Assembly (NCBI GenBank): GCA_030149525.1
Contig: JASBRJ010000368.1
Coordinates: 1 to 64,000, forward strand
Direction: 5' to 3'
Length of the DNA stretch: 64,000 bases
DNA from: a bacterium
Lineage (GTDB): Bacteria > Vulcanimicrobiota > Xenobia > Xenobiales > JADMJV01
A program made the position numbers and the translations under genes. The notes under the pieces were generated by a model. The model saw only the letters and a program-made list of their open reading frames with translations. It was not told where the DNA came from and made no database searches. Positions 27,501-35,289 of the stretch are shown here, piece by piece (within the stretch, counting starts at the first letter, position 1; every line of letters begins with the position of its first letter).

Positions 27501-29372
27501 TCAAAAAATTCCGTGTAGCGGTTCACCGGAGGCCGCCATAGCTTCGATCTTGCTCACCAAATCCGGATCTTCTTCCAGTACCGGTGCGTGGTGAGGCTTG
27601 AGTCGTGCATCAATGACCATAGGCCCGTGACAGCCCCAGTGCTTGTTCTTGGTAAAGCTCTCAACCCCGTAGATATCGGTGGCAGGATCGCTTCGAGTGA
27701 AGGTGACCCAGAGAAAGTTCTCCCAACTGCCGCTCAGAAAGTCAGCTTTTTCGGTGACGACCCAGAGAGGGTAGCATCGAGCCGGATGTTCTGCCGGGAA
27801 CAGTTCTTGTAAGTTCGAGAGCAAGGGGTCCGCCCCCCGTTCGGTGCTGGAGAACTCAGGGCCGGAGAGGGCCAGGATACCAGGAGCCACGGCCCTCAAC
27901 TGTTGAAACGGTCCCAACTCCGACACGCCGTATTCCTCCCACCAGGCGGCGTCTTTCAACTCCCGCACCGGTTCCCCCACCGCCGCCATGACCACCTTAC
28001 TCCCGGTCTGGAACCCGGAGCCCGAGTAGTCCAGAGTGTCGATACTGGTCTGAGTTTGAAAGTGAAGATCCCGACGCAGGTCGATGCGGCGAAGGAGATG
28101 CTCGAAGAGAGCTCGGCTGTTTTTAGGGTGGAGAGAGGGGTCATCCTCTCCGGCCACGATCAGAAGAAATTTGGCCAACGACAATTGACCCTGACCCAGA
28201 ATAGCGTTGGCCGCAGTGAGGATTTCCTGGGGCCGCTTCCGTTTGCGGTAAGGCTCATATCGCTCGCTTGCCACCGCCAGAAGCAGAGGGTGTACTCCCG
28301 CCTCGTCCACAGCGTTCACCGCTTTCACACCTGGGAGAACCGTGGGAAGTGCGGGACCGGTGAGTTCGTGAATCAACTCACCGATGACGGAATCTTCCTG
28401 GGGCGGACGCCCGACGGTCGTAAAAGGCCAAATAGCGTCTTTGCGAGCCCACACGTTATGAACTTTGAGAACCGGAAAGTCGTGGATCAGAGAATAGTAA
28501 CCGAGATGATCTCCGAAGGGGCCCTCCGGTCGCGTCTGGCCGCTCAGGACACCTTCGATGATGAAGTCGGCCTCGGCCAAGAGGGGCAATCCGTTCAGAC
28601 CCGGACAGATTCTGACGCCCCGCCCTCCCAGCACACCCGCGAATGCAAGTTCCGGCAAACCCTCGGGCAGGGGCATGACGGCCGAGAGGGCCAGAGACGG
28701 GGGTCCTCCCACAACGATGTTGACCGGAAGTTCTACTCCTTTCTCCAAAGCCTCTTTGTGGTGGATACCCAGGCCGCGATGAATCTGATAGTGAAGACCG
28801 ACCTCGTCCTCGGCGTACTTGTTCCCGTTCAACTGACTGCGATACATCCCCATATTGGAAGCGGGCCACCCCTTCCACCAGGAAGTTCCAGGAGGCTGTG
28901 AATAAACGGCCGGCAGAGTCACAAAAGCCCCGCCGTCATCCGGCCAACAAACGATTTGAGGAAGTTCGTTCTTATGAATTCTCTGAGCTCTCACCGGGGC
29001 CTTTGACCCTGAGATGGGGATGGGGAAAGCGTGGATGCCACCTGTGGCCAGATGAAAGAGTCTTGCGGGAAGTTTCCATCCCTCCCGAAGCAGCGACTCG
29101 GGATCGGCCTTGAGACTCACCAGAGCTTCAACCGCTTTGATTCCGTGACGAAGGACGAACTCCGCCCTTTCCATAGTTCCATACAGATTGGCAAGACAGG
29201 GAAATCGACTCCCCTTCACATTTGTGAACAGGAGAGCAGGAGCGCCAGAGCGATAGGCTCGACGCTGAATCATGCCGATCTCCAGAAAGGGGTCGACGGG
29301 GGTCTCGATCACTTTGAGATCGTTGATTCGTTGAAGGTCGTCTACACATTCGGCAAGTGATCGGTAGGCCAT
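27501..29372 (-). CDS. UbiD-family decarboxylase (623 aa)
   Basis: The protein belongs to the UbiD family of prenylated-FMN-dependent (de)carboxylases, which act on aromatic or alpha,beta-unsaturated acids. Signatures include NMGMYRSQ near residue 175, the Glu/Asp-rich active site EGPFGDHLGYYS near 290 and VGRPPQEDSVIGELIHELTG. It is longer than E. coli UbiD (about 490), with a C-terminal extension. ATG 29372 is preferred over 29402 because AAAAAGGT precedes it and it begins as MAYRSLAECVDDL. No UbiX prenyltransferase gene is in the window. Ubiquinone or menaquinone synthesis is one possible role, not proved here. Confidence 0.9.
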   Translation of the reverse strand: MAYRSLAECVDDLQRINDLKVIETPVDPFLEIGMIQRRAYRSGAPALLFTNVKGSRFPCLANLYGTMERAEFVLRHGIKAVEALVSLKADPESLLREGWKLPARLFHLATGGIHAFPIPISGSKAPVRAQRIHKNELPQIVCWPDDGGAFVTLPAVYSQPPGTSWWKGWPASNMGMYRSQLNGNKYAEDEVGLHYQIHRGLGIHHKEALEKGVELPVNIVVGGPPSLALSAVMPLPEGLPELAFAGVLGGRGVRICPGLNGLPLLAEADFIIEGVLSGQTRPEGPFGDHLGYYSLIHDFPVLKVHNVWARKDAIWPFTTVGRPPQEDSVIGELIHELTGPALPTVLPGVKAVNAVDEAGVHPLLLAVASERYEPYRKRKRPQEILTAANAILGQGQLSLAKFLLIVAGEDDPSLHPKNSRALFEHLLRRIDLRRDLHFQTQTSIDTLDYSGSGFQTGSKVVMAAVGEPVRELKDAAWWEEYGVSELGPFQQLRAVAPGILALSGPEFSSTERGADPLLSNLQELFPAEHPARCYPLWVVTEKADFLSGSWENFLWVTFTRSDPATDIYGVESFTKNKHWGCHGPMVIDARLKPHHAPVLEEDPDLVSKIEAMAASGEPLHGIF

Positions 29373-29452
29373 ACCTTTTTCTACCCCTGTCCATCGGCCC
29401 ATAACCCTGGAGATCCCGCAGGATAGCGGCCGTCGTAGACGTAGGAACGACT

Positions 29453-31537
29453 ATGCAAACAATCCACGCGGTTTTCTCACCCGATCTCACCGGGGAAGAG
29501 CTCGAAAGCGCCGCCGGCCTATGTGCCTCGCATTATCCCGGTGCCGACCTTCATTGCTGGGCTCACCAATCGGTGCCTCAACTGGCCTCTCATTGGCCCG
29601 GAAAGTGGCAGCACTACAAAGAACTTCCCTGTGAGTTGGAGGCCGACGAGGTTGTTTTTCTGGATCGCGACCCCCGATTCTTCACAGCGCCCCGGCATAT
29701 CGTGCCCGCATCTCACGCTCTGGAGTCGGTGACCTACGAAGTCGGCAAAGAACTGGTCGGCTTCTATTCCTCAGCTCTTCGGCCCGAGTTCATTCACTCG
29801 TTGCAGCAGTCGGGGACCCCACTTCGCTTGCTCGGCTTCGAGGGTTCCACCAGAGTGGAAGCGCCCCGAGGCGCCGCTGTACCTATCGTCCACTCCATCG
29901 CCGTCAAACGCGGCGTGGTTCTGCTTTCCATTTCCACTCCCGAGATGTGGAAACAGTCCGGCTTTTTGGCGAAAATCTTCCAGGCCTGCGCTAAGCTTGA
30001 CCTGTCGGTAGACCAGGTCAGTGCATCGGAAATGGAGGTGACTCTGACTCTTGACATCAATCAGGAGTCCAACACTCCGAACACTATCGATAAGCTCACG
30101 CAAGAAATGAGCCAGTGGGGACAGGTGAGTCTGGAGCACCCCAGCGCGGCCGTTTCCTTGGTCGGCACGCGCATACGCTCGGTCCTCACCCAACTTTCCA
30201 CGGTCTTTCAACGGTTCGAGGAAGAGCGGGTCTTTCTCATCTCCCAGTCGGCAGGTGACGGCAACTTGAGCTTTGTGGTGGAACAGGCCAAGGCCGACAA
30301 ATTGATGCGAGATCTTCACGCGCTTCTTTTTCCCGCCTCGGTCGCCACCACCCCGTCGGAGGCGGCGACTCCTTTCCCCGATCGCTCACCCTGGTGGGTT
30401 CAACAACGAGAACCGCTGTTGAAAATGAGCCGTCACCAGAAGACCCCGTTCTTCCTACTCCACGAACCGACCGTCCAGGAGCAGTTGAGAACACTGACGG
30501 AGACATCCGGCTGCGATCGGTTTTTGTTCGCCATCAAATCCAACCACCATCCGGATCTTCTCCGCACAGTGCGTCGAGCGGGCGTCAAATTCGAGGTGGT
30601 TTCCCCTGAGGAGATCGATCATCTGTTCACAGTCTTTCCCGATCTCACCGGGGAGGAGATCCTCTACACTCCCAACTTCGCCTCAGCCGACGATTTCAAG
30701 AGAGGATTCGACCGCGGAACCTACGTCACCCTGGACAATCATTCCCCATTAGACGATCATCCCGAACTGTTTGCCGGACGCCGGCTGGTTCTCCGTATCG
30801 ACCCGGGCAAGGGCGAAGGACACCATAAGCATGTAAAAACCGCGGGCCGAGGGTCGAAATTCGGTATCGACCTTGACATGATCGAGCGCACGAGAGAGAG
30901 ATTGCTGGAACTCGACTGCGATGTAATTGGCCTTCACTGTCACGCCGGGAGCGGAATTCGCTCCGTTCAGCCGTGGCTTCGTAACGCCCGAGTTCTGGCG
31001 AGCCTCATTCCCAAATTTCCCCACACACGATTCCTGGACCTCGGCGGTGGGTTCGGGGTTCCGGAACGACCCGGTGAGCCAAGCCTGGACCTGAGCCAAC
31101 TCCAGGAAGGCCTGAGTGAGATTCGCAAGCAGTACCCCAACCTAGAGATCTGGCTTGAACCCGGCCGTTTCATTGTGGCTCAAGCGGGGGCACTCCTCAC
31201 GCGAGTCACCCAGGTGAAAAAGAAAGGGGAACAGACTTTCATCGGAGTGGATGCGGGCATGAACAGCTTGATTCGTCCAGCGCTTTACGGCGCCTATCAC
31301 AGCATCGTCAACCTTTCCCGACTCAATGAGGAGCGGACCGTGCAAGCGGATATCGTTGGTCCCATCTGCGAGTCAGGCGACGTGCTCGGTTCTCAACGTC
31401 TGGTGCCGGAGAGTCGGCCCGGAGATCTTTTCCTGGTCGCAAACACAGGTGCCTACGGACGAGTGATGAGTTCCCACTACAACATGCGAGAACCCGCTCC
31501 GGAACTCTGGTGGACCGGGGGAAGGATTCCAACTTAG
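29453..31537 (+). CDS. lysA: Diaminopimelate decarboxylase fused to an N-terminal aspartokinase remnant with ACT domains (694 aa)
   Basis: Residues about 330-694 are a full PLP-dependent diaminopimelate decarboxylase: the PLP Lys362 in FAIKSNHHPDL, HCHAGSGI, LDLGGGFGVP, EPGRFIVAQAGALL, the CESGD motif and NTGAYG. It makes L-lysine from meso-diaminopimelate. Residues about 60-140 match the last part of an aspartokinase catalytic domain (ADEVVFLDRDPRFFTA, then LRPEFIHSLQQSGTPLRLL) and about 145-300 match its tandem ACT domains (VVLLSISTPEMWKQSGFLA). The kinase start with KFGGTS and the GRGGSD loop are missing. Xanthomonads have a full-length LysC-LysA fusion; this looks like a version reduced to a regulatory module. 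Confidence 0.9.
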   Translation: MQTIHAVFSPDLTGEELESAAGLCASHYPGADLHCWAHQSVPQLASHWPGKWQHYKELPCELEADEVVFLDRDPRFFTAPRHIVPASHALESVTYEVGKELVGFYSSALRPEFIHSLQQSGTPLRLLGFEGSTRVEAPRGAAVPIVHSIAVKRGVVLLSISTPEMWKQSGFLAKIFQACAKLDLSVDQVSASEMEVTLTLDINQESNTPNTIDKLTQEMSQWGQVSLEHPSAAVSLVGTRIRSVLTQLSTVFQRFEEERVFLISQSAGDGNLSFVVEQAKADKLMRDLHALLFPASVATTPSEAATPFPDRSPWWVQQREPLLKMSRHQKTPFFLLHEPTVQEQLRTLTETSGCDRFLFAIKSNHHPDLLRTVRRAGVKFEVVSPEEIDHLFTVFPDLTGEEILYTPNFASADDFKRGFDRGTYVTLDNHSPLDDHPELFAGRRLVLRIDPGKGEGHHKHVKTAGRGSKFGIDLDMIERTRERLLELDCDVIGLHCHAGSGIRSVQPWLRNARVLASLIPKFPHTRFLDLGGGFGVPERPGEPSLDLSQLQEGLSEIRKQYPNLEIWLEPGRFIVAQAGALLTRVTQVKKKGEQTFIGVDAGMNSLIRPALYGAYHSIVNLSRLNEERTVQADIVGPICESGDVLGSQRLVPESRPGDLFLVANTGAYGRVMSSHYNMREPAPELWWTGGRIPT

Positions 31538-31614
31538 CCTTGAGAACAGCAATGAAGCTTTGAAAGCGGTGTCGCATGGTAAACGTGGTTTCCAAGACAC
31601 CTATGGAGGATAGA

Positions 31615-32148
31615 ATGGACACGCAAACGCTTACTACCGTGCCCCCGGATGGCAAGAAATTCCTGGTCAATTCCAAGAAACCGGAGAAACGGGCGACCGG
31701 CATGCCGCAGATTCACATGGCAAGCCTTACCTTCAACACCTCGCGTGGTCCCCAGTTCATCGACATCACCGATCTGGTCCAAGAAAACTTGGAGATGGCC
31801 GGTATCAGAGAGGGCAACGTTTTCATCTATTCCCGTCACACTACGGCGGGAATTGTTGTTAATGAGAACGAGCCTCTGCTGATCAAAGATATGTATCGCT
31901 ATCTGGAACGTCTGGCTTCGCCGGCCGAAGATTATGATCACAACAACTTTGATGTTCGTACGGTGAACATGTGTGATGACGAGTGTGCCAACGGCCACGC
32001 TCACTGCCAACACCTGACTATCGGTTGTTCCGAGCATGTACCGGTGATGGACGGCAAGTTATCCCTGGGCCAATGGCAACGCATTTTTCTTCTGGAAATG
32101 GACCGTCCCCGAACCAGAGAAGTTATCCTCCAGTTCTTCGGCGTCTAG
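31615..32148 (+). CDS. YjbQ/UPF0047 family protein (177 aa)
   Basis: This small cytoplasmic protein of the YjbQ family carries the conserved IYSRHTTAGIVVNENEP at about residue 65-81 and HLTIGCSEHVPVMDGKLSLG near 130. Members have shown weak thiamin phosphate synthase activity, but the physiological role is not established. The ATG at 31615 has GGAGG five bases upstream and is preferred over 31576. It lies 77 bases after lysA and is followed by a terminator. Confidence 0.9.
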   Translation: MDTQTLTTVPPDGKKFLVNSKKPEKRATGMPQIHMASLTFNTSRGPQFIDITDLVQENLEMAGIREGNVFIYSRHTTAGIVVNENEPLLIKDMYRYLERLASPAEDYDHNNFDVRTVNMCDDECANGHAHCQHLTIGCSEHVPVMDGKLSLGQWQRIFLLEMDRPRTREVILQFFGV

Positions 32149-32840: not shown

Positions 32841-33340
32841 CGCTTTTCTTCATTTTCCTTTCGTTTATAGCTCCCGCTCTTGCCTCCGTCTTTCTCCAGC
32901 AATCGAGTGGGCCCGATGCTCATCGACTTATCCAGAGCCTTGACCATGTCATACAGAGTCAGGGAGGCGACCGCGGCTCCAGTCAAAGCTTCCATCTCCA
33001 CACCGGTTTTGCCAGAGGTAGACGCTACCACCTCAATCCTCACCTGATTTTCATCTCGAAACTCTATTTCACAGGAAACGGATTCCATGGGTAACGGATG
33101 GCACAGCGGTATGAGTTCGCTGGTCTTCTTGACCGCCATAATGGCTGCAATTCTCACTGTGGCAAGAACGTCTCCCTTGGGCGTCTTCCCACCTTTGAGA
33201 GCCTCGTAGGCCTGGCCGCTCATGGTCACCCAACTCTCGGCCACCGCCCGGCGAGACGTCACCGCCTTGGTAGATATGTCCACAATGTGAACCTGGCCTT
33301 GAGCATCGATGTGAGTCAGAGACTCCCTCTGGGAACTCAA
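32837..33340 (-). CDS. moaC: Cyclic pyranopterin monophosphate synthase MoaC (167 aa)
   Basis: MoaC completes the first step of molybdenum cofactor synthesis, forming cPMP after MoaA. The family motifs are clear: AAIMAVKKTSELIPLCHPLP at about residue 66-85 and GKTGVEMEALTGAAVASLTL at about 115-134. The start is TTG at 33340, which overlaps the upstream stop as TTGA, so it is coupled to the MoeA-like gene. MoaA, MoaB and MoaE are not in the window. Confidence 0.95.
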   Translation of the reverse strand: MSSQRESLTHIDAQGQVHIVDISTKAVTSRRAVAESWVTMSGQAYEALKGGKTPKGDVLATVRIAAIMAVKKTSELIPLCHPLPMESVSCEIEFRDENQVRIEVVASTSGKTGVEMEALTGAAVASLTLYDMVKALDKSMSIGPTRLLEKDGGKSGSYKRKENEEKR

Positions 33341-35289
33341 GCTTCAGGTGTCTCCCAAACAAGCTTGCCGGCCTCAGAGAAATCATAGTCGGGGAACCGA
33401 GAGGTCGCCGACTCTCGGAAGCTCGCGCTACCCATCACGGCCAGTAAGGCACGAAGAGGATAAAGAGAGAGAAATCGCTTGGGAAAGATGAAGTCTAACC
33501 GCTCCGAAATGCAGGGTACGAAATCCAAGCCAAGGGATCGCGCCGCAGTAGAGATGGTGGGCGCTGCGTCCGCTGTGCCGCCCTTCACGGCGGCCGCCGT
33601 GCTCATGTGAGTGTGAGCGTTGAGATCGTAACCCCGTATGTTCTCGGGTGAGACTCCCGCCTGCTTTAGATGGTAATCCAGAAGGACTCGAGTCCCAGAG
33701 CCCTCTTGACGATTGACGAAGCGAATTCCGGGCTGTTTGAGATCGGCAAGGCCGCTGATCCCCTTGGGATTTCCAGGAGCCACCGCAAGACCCAGCCATC
33801 GCTTCAACACCTGGATCACAACCACCGGTTCATTCCATTCACAGTTCTTCAGGAACGGCACGTTGTAGTCGCCCGTCTCTTCGTCGAAAAGGTGAGCTGC
33901 CGCGCCGTGGCATTGACCTCTGCGCAAACACTCCAAACCTTTGCGACCACCGATAGCCGCCGTATGGAGACGAACTTGAGGATATCTGTCATGAAGATGA
34001 TCCCTCAAGAGATCGTAAGTGATATCATGCGTACCCAAAACCAGAAGGTGACCGGTGAGGTTCTCGTTATCACGAAGCCGGAGAACCTCAACCTCCTCAC
34101 CTCGCCGAAGAGAATCGACGTCGGAAGGGATACGTATCAGGCCGTCGGCCTTTGTGAGACTCATGAGCGTTCCATGCCCGCCGGATTCGGCCACAGCAAT
34201 GGGCTGATTGTTGACCACGCCCATTTTGACTCGCAGAAACTCCTCGACTCCCAGAGCCGATTCACAACCCAGAGCGAGCTGAGCCTTCTGAACAGGCCAT
34301 GGACCTCTGTAGTCACGAAGCCTGGCCTTGGACAAGCTTCGAATGGCAGGCAGACCGAAAAGACAAAAACCGAGATAGGCCGGAACCAGGTGGGAGGAGA
34401 CCCCGAGAACCGGGGTATCGCCAACGAAACCGAGGACCACGGAGTTTCCGGGCCTGATAGCAACGCCCCGAAGGGTGCATTCGCCACATTCGGCCAAAGC
34501 GTCGGCCACAAGGCCTGTGCCCCTCTCATGACCTGCACATATAATAAGAAGATCACAGCGGTCCTGATGGTGTTGCAAGGTTTGAACGACGGTATCCCGG
34601 CGCTCTTCAATAGGCGGGTACCTCTTGGTCAGGATGTCGTACTCAGTGCCGAGAGCCGCCAAGAACGGAGAGGTGTGGTCGACCTTTTGACCGGCTGCAG
34701 GCACTCGCCCCGGCTCTACCAGATCGCTGCCCACAGGGATGATTCGTATCCTCGATTGAGCCTCCACCTCAAGCTCAGAGATGCCGCCGGCAATCAAAGC
34801 GCCCAGATCGAGAGACCGAACTTTATGGCCTTTCGGCAAGATGACCTCACCGGCCGCCAGGTCTTCGCCAATGGGACGCACGTTTCGCCAGGGTGCCGAG
34901 GGTCGAACGATCTCCAAATGCCTATCGTCGGTGGAAGTAATTTCGAAGAAAGGGATCACGGTATCGCAGCCGGGAGGCATAGGGTATCCCGGCTCGACGA
35001 AAGGGAGTCCCTCCTGGACTTCCACAACCACCGGATTATCCGGTGTGGCCTGAAGTGTCTCGTGAGAGGCCATAGCCAATCCGGTGGTTGCTGCTGCGTA
35101 GTAGTTGGGTGATGAGATTCGAGCAACAACGGTCTCTGAGGTGAGCCGACCGATAGCCTCCTCCACGCCAACCAATTGACCGGGCAACTCTTTAGAGTCG
35201 CGACGGAAGTCGAGATCACTTGCCCAACGCTCCAGCGCCTCGTCCAGAGGTATGTCGCTAAGACGCGGTGCCGGTTCAGATACTTTCAC
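33337..35289 (-). CDS. MoeA-like molybdopterin molybdenumtransferase fused to a periplasmic-binding-protein-like domain (650 aa)
   Basis: Residues 1-400 follow the MoeA plan: LDEALERWA, VGVEEAIGRLTSETVVARIS, YPMPPGCDTVIPF, RPIGEDLAAGEVILPKGHKV. Residues about 405-650 form a PBP-like domain of the COG1910 type (GHLLVLGTHDITYDLLRDHL, then EGSGTRVLLDYHLKQAGV), known from MoeA-PBP fusions. MoeA inserts molybdate into adenylated molybdopterin. Some usual MoeA residues are changed: the PGNPVS segment reads VSSHLVPA and GDE reads GSD. It overlaps gatB by 14 bases and moaC by four. It may use the second domain to sense or bind an oxyanion or cofactor, an inference. Confidence 0.85.
   Translation of the reverse strand: MKVSEPAPRLSDIPLDEALERWASDLDFRRDSKELPGQLVGVEEAIGRLTSETVVARISSPNYYAAATTGLAMASHETLQATPDNPVVVEVQEGLPFVEPGYPMPPGCDTVIPFFEITSTDDRHLEIVRPSAPWRNVRPIGEDLAAGEVILPKGHKVRSLDLGALIAGGISELEVEAQSRIRIIPVGSDLVEPGRVPAAGQKVDHTSPFLAALGTEYDILTKRYPPIEERRDTVVQTLQHHQDRCDLLIICAGHERGTGLVADALAECGECTLRGVAIRPGNSVVLGFVGDTPVLGVSSHLVPAYLGFCLFGLPAIRSLSKARLRDYRGPWPVQKAQLALGCESALGVEEFLRVKMGVVNNQPIAVAESGGHGTLMSLTKADGLIRIPSDVDSLRRGEEVEVLRLRDNENLTGHLLVLGTHDITYDLLRDHLHDRYPQVRLHTAAIGGRKGLECLRRGQCHGAAAHLFDEETGDYNVPFLKNCEWNEPVVVIQVLKRWLGLAVAPGNPKGISGLADLKQPGIRFVNRQEGSGTRVLLDYHLKQAGVSPENIRGYDLNAHTHMSTAAAVKGGTADAAPTISTAARSLGLDFVPCISERLDFIFPKRFLSLYPLRALLAVMGSASFRESATSRFPDYDFSEAGKLVWETPEA

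Follow-up and report, generated by a model that had tools for sequence, protein, structure and literature searches.

A LysC-LysA fusion without a working aspartokinase, and candidate ACT-domain control of diaminopimelate decarboxylase

Introduction

The locus described here raises the question of what the regulatory domains of an aspartokinase may do once the kinase itself is gone and they remain joined to a different enzyme of the lysine pathway, diaminopimelate (DAP) decarboxylase, or LysA. Fusions of full-length aspartokinase to LysA (ask-lysA) have been described in Xanthomonadaceae, where the arrangement was suggested to speed feedback on the kinase (PMC1885841). In a 64,000-nucleotide stretch of DNA from a bacterium of the phylum Vulcanimicrobiota (contig JASBRJ010000368.1, positions 1 to 64,000; hereafter the window), a sequence-only reading had proposed a LysA fused to an aspartokinase that lacks its catalytic start. 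Here, we report what profile searches, alignments, structure prediction and comparison with relatives indicate about this protein.

Results

The proposed fusion held up on inspection: a single plus-strand frame, exactly 29453-31537, encodes the whole protein (Table 1), and its ATG start is preceded by taggaacgact, in which AGGA is Shine-Dalgarno-like. Residues 61-684 align with positions 225-856 of the 861-position profile NF006515 (PRK08961; bifunctional aspartate kinase/DAP decarboxylase) with an E-value of 1.8e-207, and profile positions 1-224, which contain the KFGGTS and GRGGSD motifs, have no counterpart in the protein; the score of 691.2 bits lies below the family cut-off of 802 bits. 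Pfam matched ACT_9 and both LysA domains and gave no match across 29453-29890, and AA_kinase (PF00696) found no match in the fusion in a search extending to E-values of 10. ACT_9 (PF22468; cut-off 27) scored 43.2 bits on the whole protein and 45.6 bits on residues 1-336, and PRK09084, lysine-sensitive aspartokinase 3, matched with an E-value of 4.3e-34. Pfam, the family profiles and the fold model all place the ACT pair N-terminal to a complete LysA that spans residues 314-690. The suggestion that the first 330 residues comprise the last part of an aspartokinase and its two ACT domains thus stands for the ACT pair, which is strongly matched (residues 141-296), and only in reduced form for the kinase, of which residues 61-140 are a weak remnant; residues 1-60 match no family.

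Table 1. Coordinates of the fusion, its parts and its neighbours in the window
Feature	Position	Strand	Basis
Kinase-less LysC-LysA fusion, 694 aa	29453..31537, stop codon included	+	ORF and profile matches
N-terminal tail, residues 1-60	29453..29632	+	No family match; predicted largely disordered
Degenerate aspartokinase C-lobe remnant, residues 61-140	29633..29872	+	First residue aligned to NF006515 is 61 (profile 225)
ACT1 and ACT2, lysine-sensitive aspartokinase type, residues 141-296	29873..30340	+	PF22468, PRK09084
ACT1 stretch equivalent to E. coli LysC lysine site (M318 to D354), residues 165-201	29945..30055	+	Alignment
LysA (DAP decarboxylase) domain, residues 314-694	30392..31534	+	TIGR01048, fold model
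ubiD-like decarboxylase, divergent upstream neighbour	27501..29402	-	PF01977, PF20695, PF20696; likely start 29375
UPF0047 (YjbQ-like) gene, downstream neighbour	31576..32148	+	PF01894
MoeA fused to PBP-like domain	33337..35289	-	PF03453, PF03454, PF12727

An AlphaFold2 model built from a 27-row alignment (mean pLDDT 82.9) shows an ordered remnant and ACT pair, with pLDDT mostly 75-91 over both (about 75-90 in the remnant), a LysA domain mostly at 90-98, and a tail, residues 1-54, mostly below 50. A fold search returned solved DAP decarboxylases as its top matches; the best 50 were all decarboxylases, so the search says nothing about the N-terminal half. The tail carries one copy of a 29-nt direct repeat (29475-29503 and 30633-30661; 86% identity, both copies in one reading frame, at a spacing of 1158 nt), such that its SPDLTGEE copies FPDLTGEE of the LysA domain. 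The 21-nt core of the repeat occurs at 2 places in the window against 0.01 expected, for a pattern chosen after the repeat was seen, and LysA sequence may have served to rebuild part of the tail.

Alongside the two motifs, whose absence had been noted from the outset, the catalytic positions of the kinase are lost. In E. coli LysC numbering, K8, G10, G11, S39, R198, G199, S201 and D202 are absent from the window fusion and from four proteins of a sister genus, and no complete aspartokinase domain bearing KFGGTS and GRGGSD is present in the window fusion. An upstream start that would restore the kinase was sought and not found: the frame measures 710 codons from stop to stop against 694 from the ATG, leaving 16 codons (48 bp) open, and the divergent ubiD, which probably starts 77 nt from the fusion's start codon, lies directly upstream. 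These findings rule out a wrong start or a frameshift hiding the kinase. An assembly artefact of one genome is ruled out as well, five sister-genus genomes lacking the motifs at the same locus. Nor is there a sign that the kinase moved elsewhere: no orphan type-3 kinase half is evident among the six AA_kinase matches in the genome, which comprise three aspartokinases of other classes and three proteins whose frame length, the sole criterion applied to them, suggests other amino-acid-kinase enzymes. The closed frame upstream, the presence of ubiD there and the recurrence in the sister genus indicate that the loss of the kinase is real, rather than a sequencing or start error. As far as its sequence can tell, the gene derives from a LysC-LysA fusion in which mutation and deletion evidently did away with the kinase and left the ACT pair and LysA; it encodes no working kinase.

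The LysA part scores 304.5 bits against TIGR01048 (lysA; cut-off 297.9). K362, H497, GGG531-533, EPGR569-572, C639-E640 and Y668, the PLP lysine and substrate motifs of the LysA family, are invariant across the 27-row alignment. The domain is complete and intact, and is predicted to convert meso-DAP to L-lysine; relative to LysA as defined by TIGR01048, it is distinguished by its 313-residue, ACT-containing N-terminal extension. The fusion is also the only LysA of the genome above the cut-off (303.6 bits in the genome search). A second LysA that would make it dispensable was considered and rejected, the paralogue on C368 scoring 230.7 bits against the cut-off of 297.9 and having GPLCFSGD in place of GPxCESGD. 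Elsewhere in the genome are DapF, two single aspartokinases and one aspartokinase-homoserine dehydrogenase; these three kinases retain KFGGTS/KYGGSS and GRGGSD, the separate aspartokinase classes are PRK08210 and PRK06635, and all three genes lie on contigs other than that of the fusion. A lysine riboswitch upstream of the fusion was looked for, and Rfam gave no match anywhere in the window. Farther along the window is a MoeA joined to a PBP-like domain, a known pairing.

Sites at which mutation relieves lysine inhibition of E. coli LysC have been listed (PMC3282753; PMC10464499). Most are kept in ACT1 of the window fusion: M318, G323, L325, F329, S338, V339, S345, E346, V349 and T352 are identical, and the exceptions are T344A and V347M. 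F324, D340 and D354, which lie in the same stretch, are kept as well. In the sister genus, Gln replaces the Glu at position 346. The ligand positions of ACT1 could have been kept for folding alone.

To compare constraint across the protein, positions invariant in kinase-bearing fusions were taken as reference columns, of which the window fusion keeps 73 of 76 in LysA, 18 of 26 in the ACT pair and 7 of 38 in the kinase (2/13 in the C-lobe remnant and 5/25 upstream of it). At a 90% threshold it keeps 31 of 47 ACT columns, as against at least 38 of 51 in every kinase-bearing fusion, and the kinase-bearing fusions of its order are 37-42% identical to it in ACT and 48-52% in LysA. Within the sister genus, where most pairs are close to dS saturation and the estimates are accordingly rough, dN/dS stays under 1 across the whole of ACT and LysA (about 0.04-0.06 in LysA, 0.03-0.16 in ACT2 and 0.08-0.31 in ACT1); values are 0.02-0.07 in the C-lobe remnant and, where dS is measurable, about 0.09-0.16 in the altered kinase part. 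By these measures the ACT pair is under looser constraint than LysA, and than the ACT domains of kinase-bearing fusions. The idea that the regulatory half has been kept on LysA is right in that the two ACT domains are both present and LysA is intact, with the amendment that the ACT domains have diverged more than those still joined to a kinase.

Among 149 genomes of the phylum, 8 carry the fusion, all within one order. The same reduced form was found in five genomes of the sister genus, at the same place, with KFGGTS and GRGGSD lost in 5/5, one on a partial contig that breaks off after residue 225 of this protein. In the four complete proteins of the sister genus, an N-terminal stretch of about 140 residues has no catalytic motif left, and the five fusions of the window's family match NF006515 only from positions 220-227 on. 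The altered kinase region (L042 1093-1512 and its equivalents in L041, L043, L044 and L155) is predicted to be largely helical, in a fold model of low confidence.

The gene order ubiD-fusion-UPF0047 is common to the window and the sister genus, UPF0047 where the contig reaches: ubiD is present in G001-G005, and UPF0047, at 68-70% identity to that of the window, in G001-G004. In the three sister-genus genomes measured, the fusion starts 54-108 nt from the ubiD start, against 77 nt in the window. The common order and similar start distance point to vertical inheritance of the fusion in the family. In a tree of the fusions, the window and the sister genus group weakly (support 40/31), so the tree cannot tell one common kinase loss from two; a single common loss is likely, being favoured by the locus and start position that the two have in common. 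Three fusions of the same order, from two other families (G006, G007 and G010), keep GRGGSD; the N-terminal motif is KFGGTS in G010 and KFSGRS in G007, and the G006 contig ends before it. Besides its KFSGRS variant of KFGGTS, the G007 fusion (L040, 838-3606), which is full-length, lacks K257, and its kinase may be decaying independently. Elsewhere in the phylum, LysA and aspartokinase adjoin on one strand, unfused, in G033 (L016), and adjoining pairs also occur in Bacteroidota and Methanomassiliicoccaceae loci.

Outside the phylum, full fusions in xanthomonads, which the sequence-only reading had mentioned, are documented (PMC1885841) and score above the cut-off in 364 of the 398 genomes of the order of Xanthomonas. 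Among the matches listed, every fusion of that order starts at profile position 2-8, and roughly 200 lower-scoring fusions above the cut-off fall outside those matches. When 16 genomes of the order with weak best matches were examined, the N-terminally short ones were found to end at contig ends; the Xanthomonadales candidates for kinase loss, L157, L160, L164 and L169, were rejected because all are cut in this way. In named genomes, which include Xanthomonadales, Legionella, Fodinibius and a zetaproteobacterial MAG among others, KFGG and GRGGSD are kept in 34/34 uncut fusions, L097 being cut by a contig end. The class to which the zetaproteobacterial MAG belongs has the fusion in 8 of 58 genomes, complete or split over contigs. 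Within the genomes and matches listed, the kinase-less form is seen in one family only.

Set beside the full fusions of NF006515, the window protein has the same order from the kinase end on (ACT, ACT, linker, LysA) at 37-45% identity, but lacks the kinase catalytic region and has a shorter linker. Its ACT pair resembles that of E. coli LysC (PDB 2j0w/2j0x; residues 65-293 align with 215-448 of 2j0w), but is attached to LysA rather than to a kinase.

Discussion

What, then, might the ACT pair do? The best explanation, to which we assign a probability of roughly 0.45, is that the ACT domains, predicted to bind lysine, have come to act on LysA. Feedback there would make sense, since DAP is a precursor of peptidoglycan as well as of lysine; it would bear on the sole step that channels DAP into lysine instead of the cell wall, with the first step of the pathway supplied by the three other aspartokinases. 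L-lysine would bind at the dimer interface of ACT1, following the example of E. coli aspartokinase III, in which lysine binds ACT1 and shifts the catalytic domain (PMC3195717). The ACT dimer would then pass the change to the LysA dimer, and the lysine-bound state would presumably turn down the conversion of meso-DAP to lysine. Dimerisation is essential for catalysis by DAP decarboxylase, according to a title cited in PMC10464499 (Peverelli 2016), so an attached ACT dimer would have a route by which to act. The fuller proposal, that this is a natural ACT-controlled DAP decarboxylase in which the lysine sensor of a dead kinase provides allosteric feedback on the last step and spares DAP for the cell wall, is plausible but tentative.

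Control of LysA by the ACT pair is supported by the loss of the kinase motifs while the lysine-inhibition positions of ACT1 are mostly kept, by dN/dS below 1 in the sister-genus ACT and LysA parts, by the common gene order, and by the status of the fusion as the only LysA above the cut-off. Against it stand the looser constraint on ACT (18/26 invariant columns, 31/47 at the 90% threshold), the Ala at Thr344 in the window and the Gln at Glu346 in the sister genus. In the main rival, nearly as likely as ACT control, the ACT pair and C-lobe remnant would be a structural leftover that only holds the dimer or maintains solubility, with no ligand control, and that survived because LysA of this lineage both folds and dimerises with ACT attached. 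The more relaxed ACT sequence, its lower identity than LysA to the same-order kinase-bearing fusions, and the stepwise decay of the kinase, after which ACT could be next, would all be expected of such a leftover; the coincidence of many kept ACT1 positions with those governing lysine inhibition in E. coli, and the persistence of the ACT pair in the two genera, which diverged long ago, would not.

Two further possibilities carry less weight. ACT-only regulatory subunits are known from Bacillus and Corynebacterium aspartokinases, and the ACT pair might likewise associate in trans with one of the separate aspartokinases of this genome, linking the first and last steps. The beta subunit of alpha2-beta2 aspartokinases, also an ACT pair without a kinase, is a precedent, but the pair described here is linked covalently to LysA and belongs to the type-3, lysine-sensitive kind, the separate enzymes are of other classes (PRK08210 and PRK06635), and all three aspartokinases are encoded on other contigs, which together make this association improbable. 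Least probable is that the degenerate kinase part has a cryptic catalytic role or has taken on a new one; the sister genus, with its roughly 140 altered residues kept at low dN/dS, would be the place to expect one, but all ATP- and aspartate-binding motifs are absent, only about 80 kinase residues are left in the window protein, and the sister-genus fold model is of low confidence.

The sequence-only reading also knew of no description of such control of LysA. This puts the matter too strongly, since lysine inhibition of the Bacillus subtilis DAP decarboxylase was reported, to judge by a title cited in PMC10464499 (Rosner 1975). No ACT-LysA protein was described in the titles and abstracts of the literature searched, which took in few subscription journals. 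The apparently new part is thus control of LysA through an attached ACT domain, for which we found no description there, and not lysine control of LysA as such.

A lineage that has lost the kinase but carries a predicted sensor on LysA constitutes a natural experiment on the suggestion that fusion speeds feedback on the kinase (PMC1885841), and direct ACT control of LysA could be tested with one purified protein. If the ACT pair does control LysA, feedback would have been added at the point where DAP splits between lysine and peptidoglycan, and the fusion would offer a regulated part for lysine engineering. The ACT pair may then already act on LysA in the many full LysC-LysA fusions, a gene arrangement that nearly every genome in the order of Xanthomonas carries.
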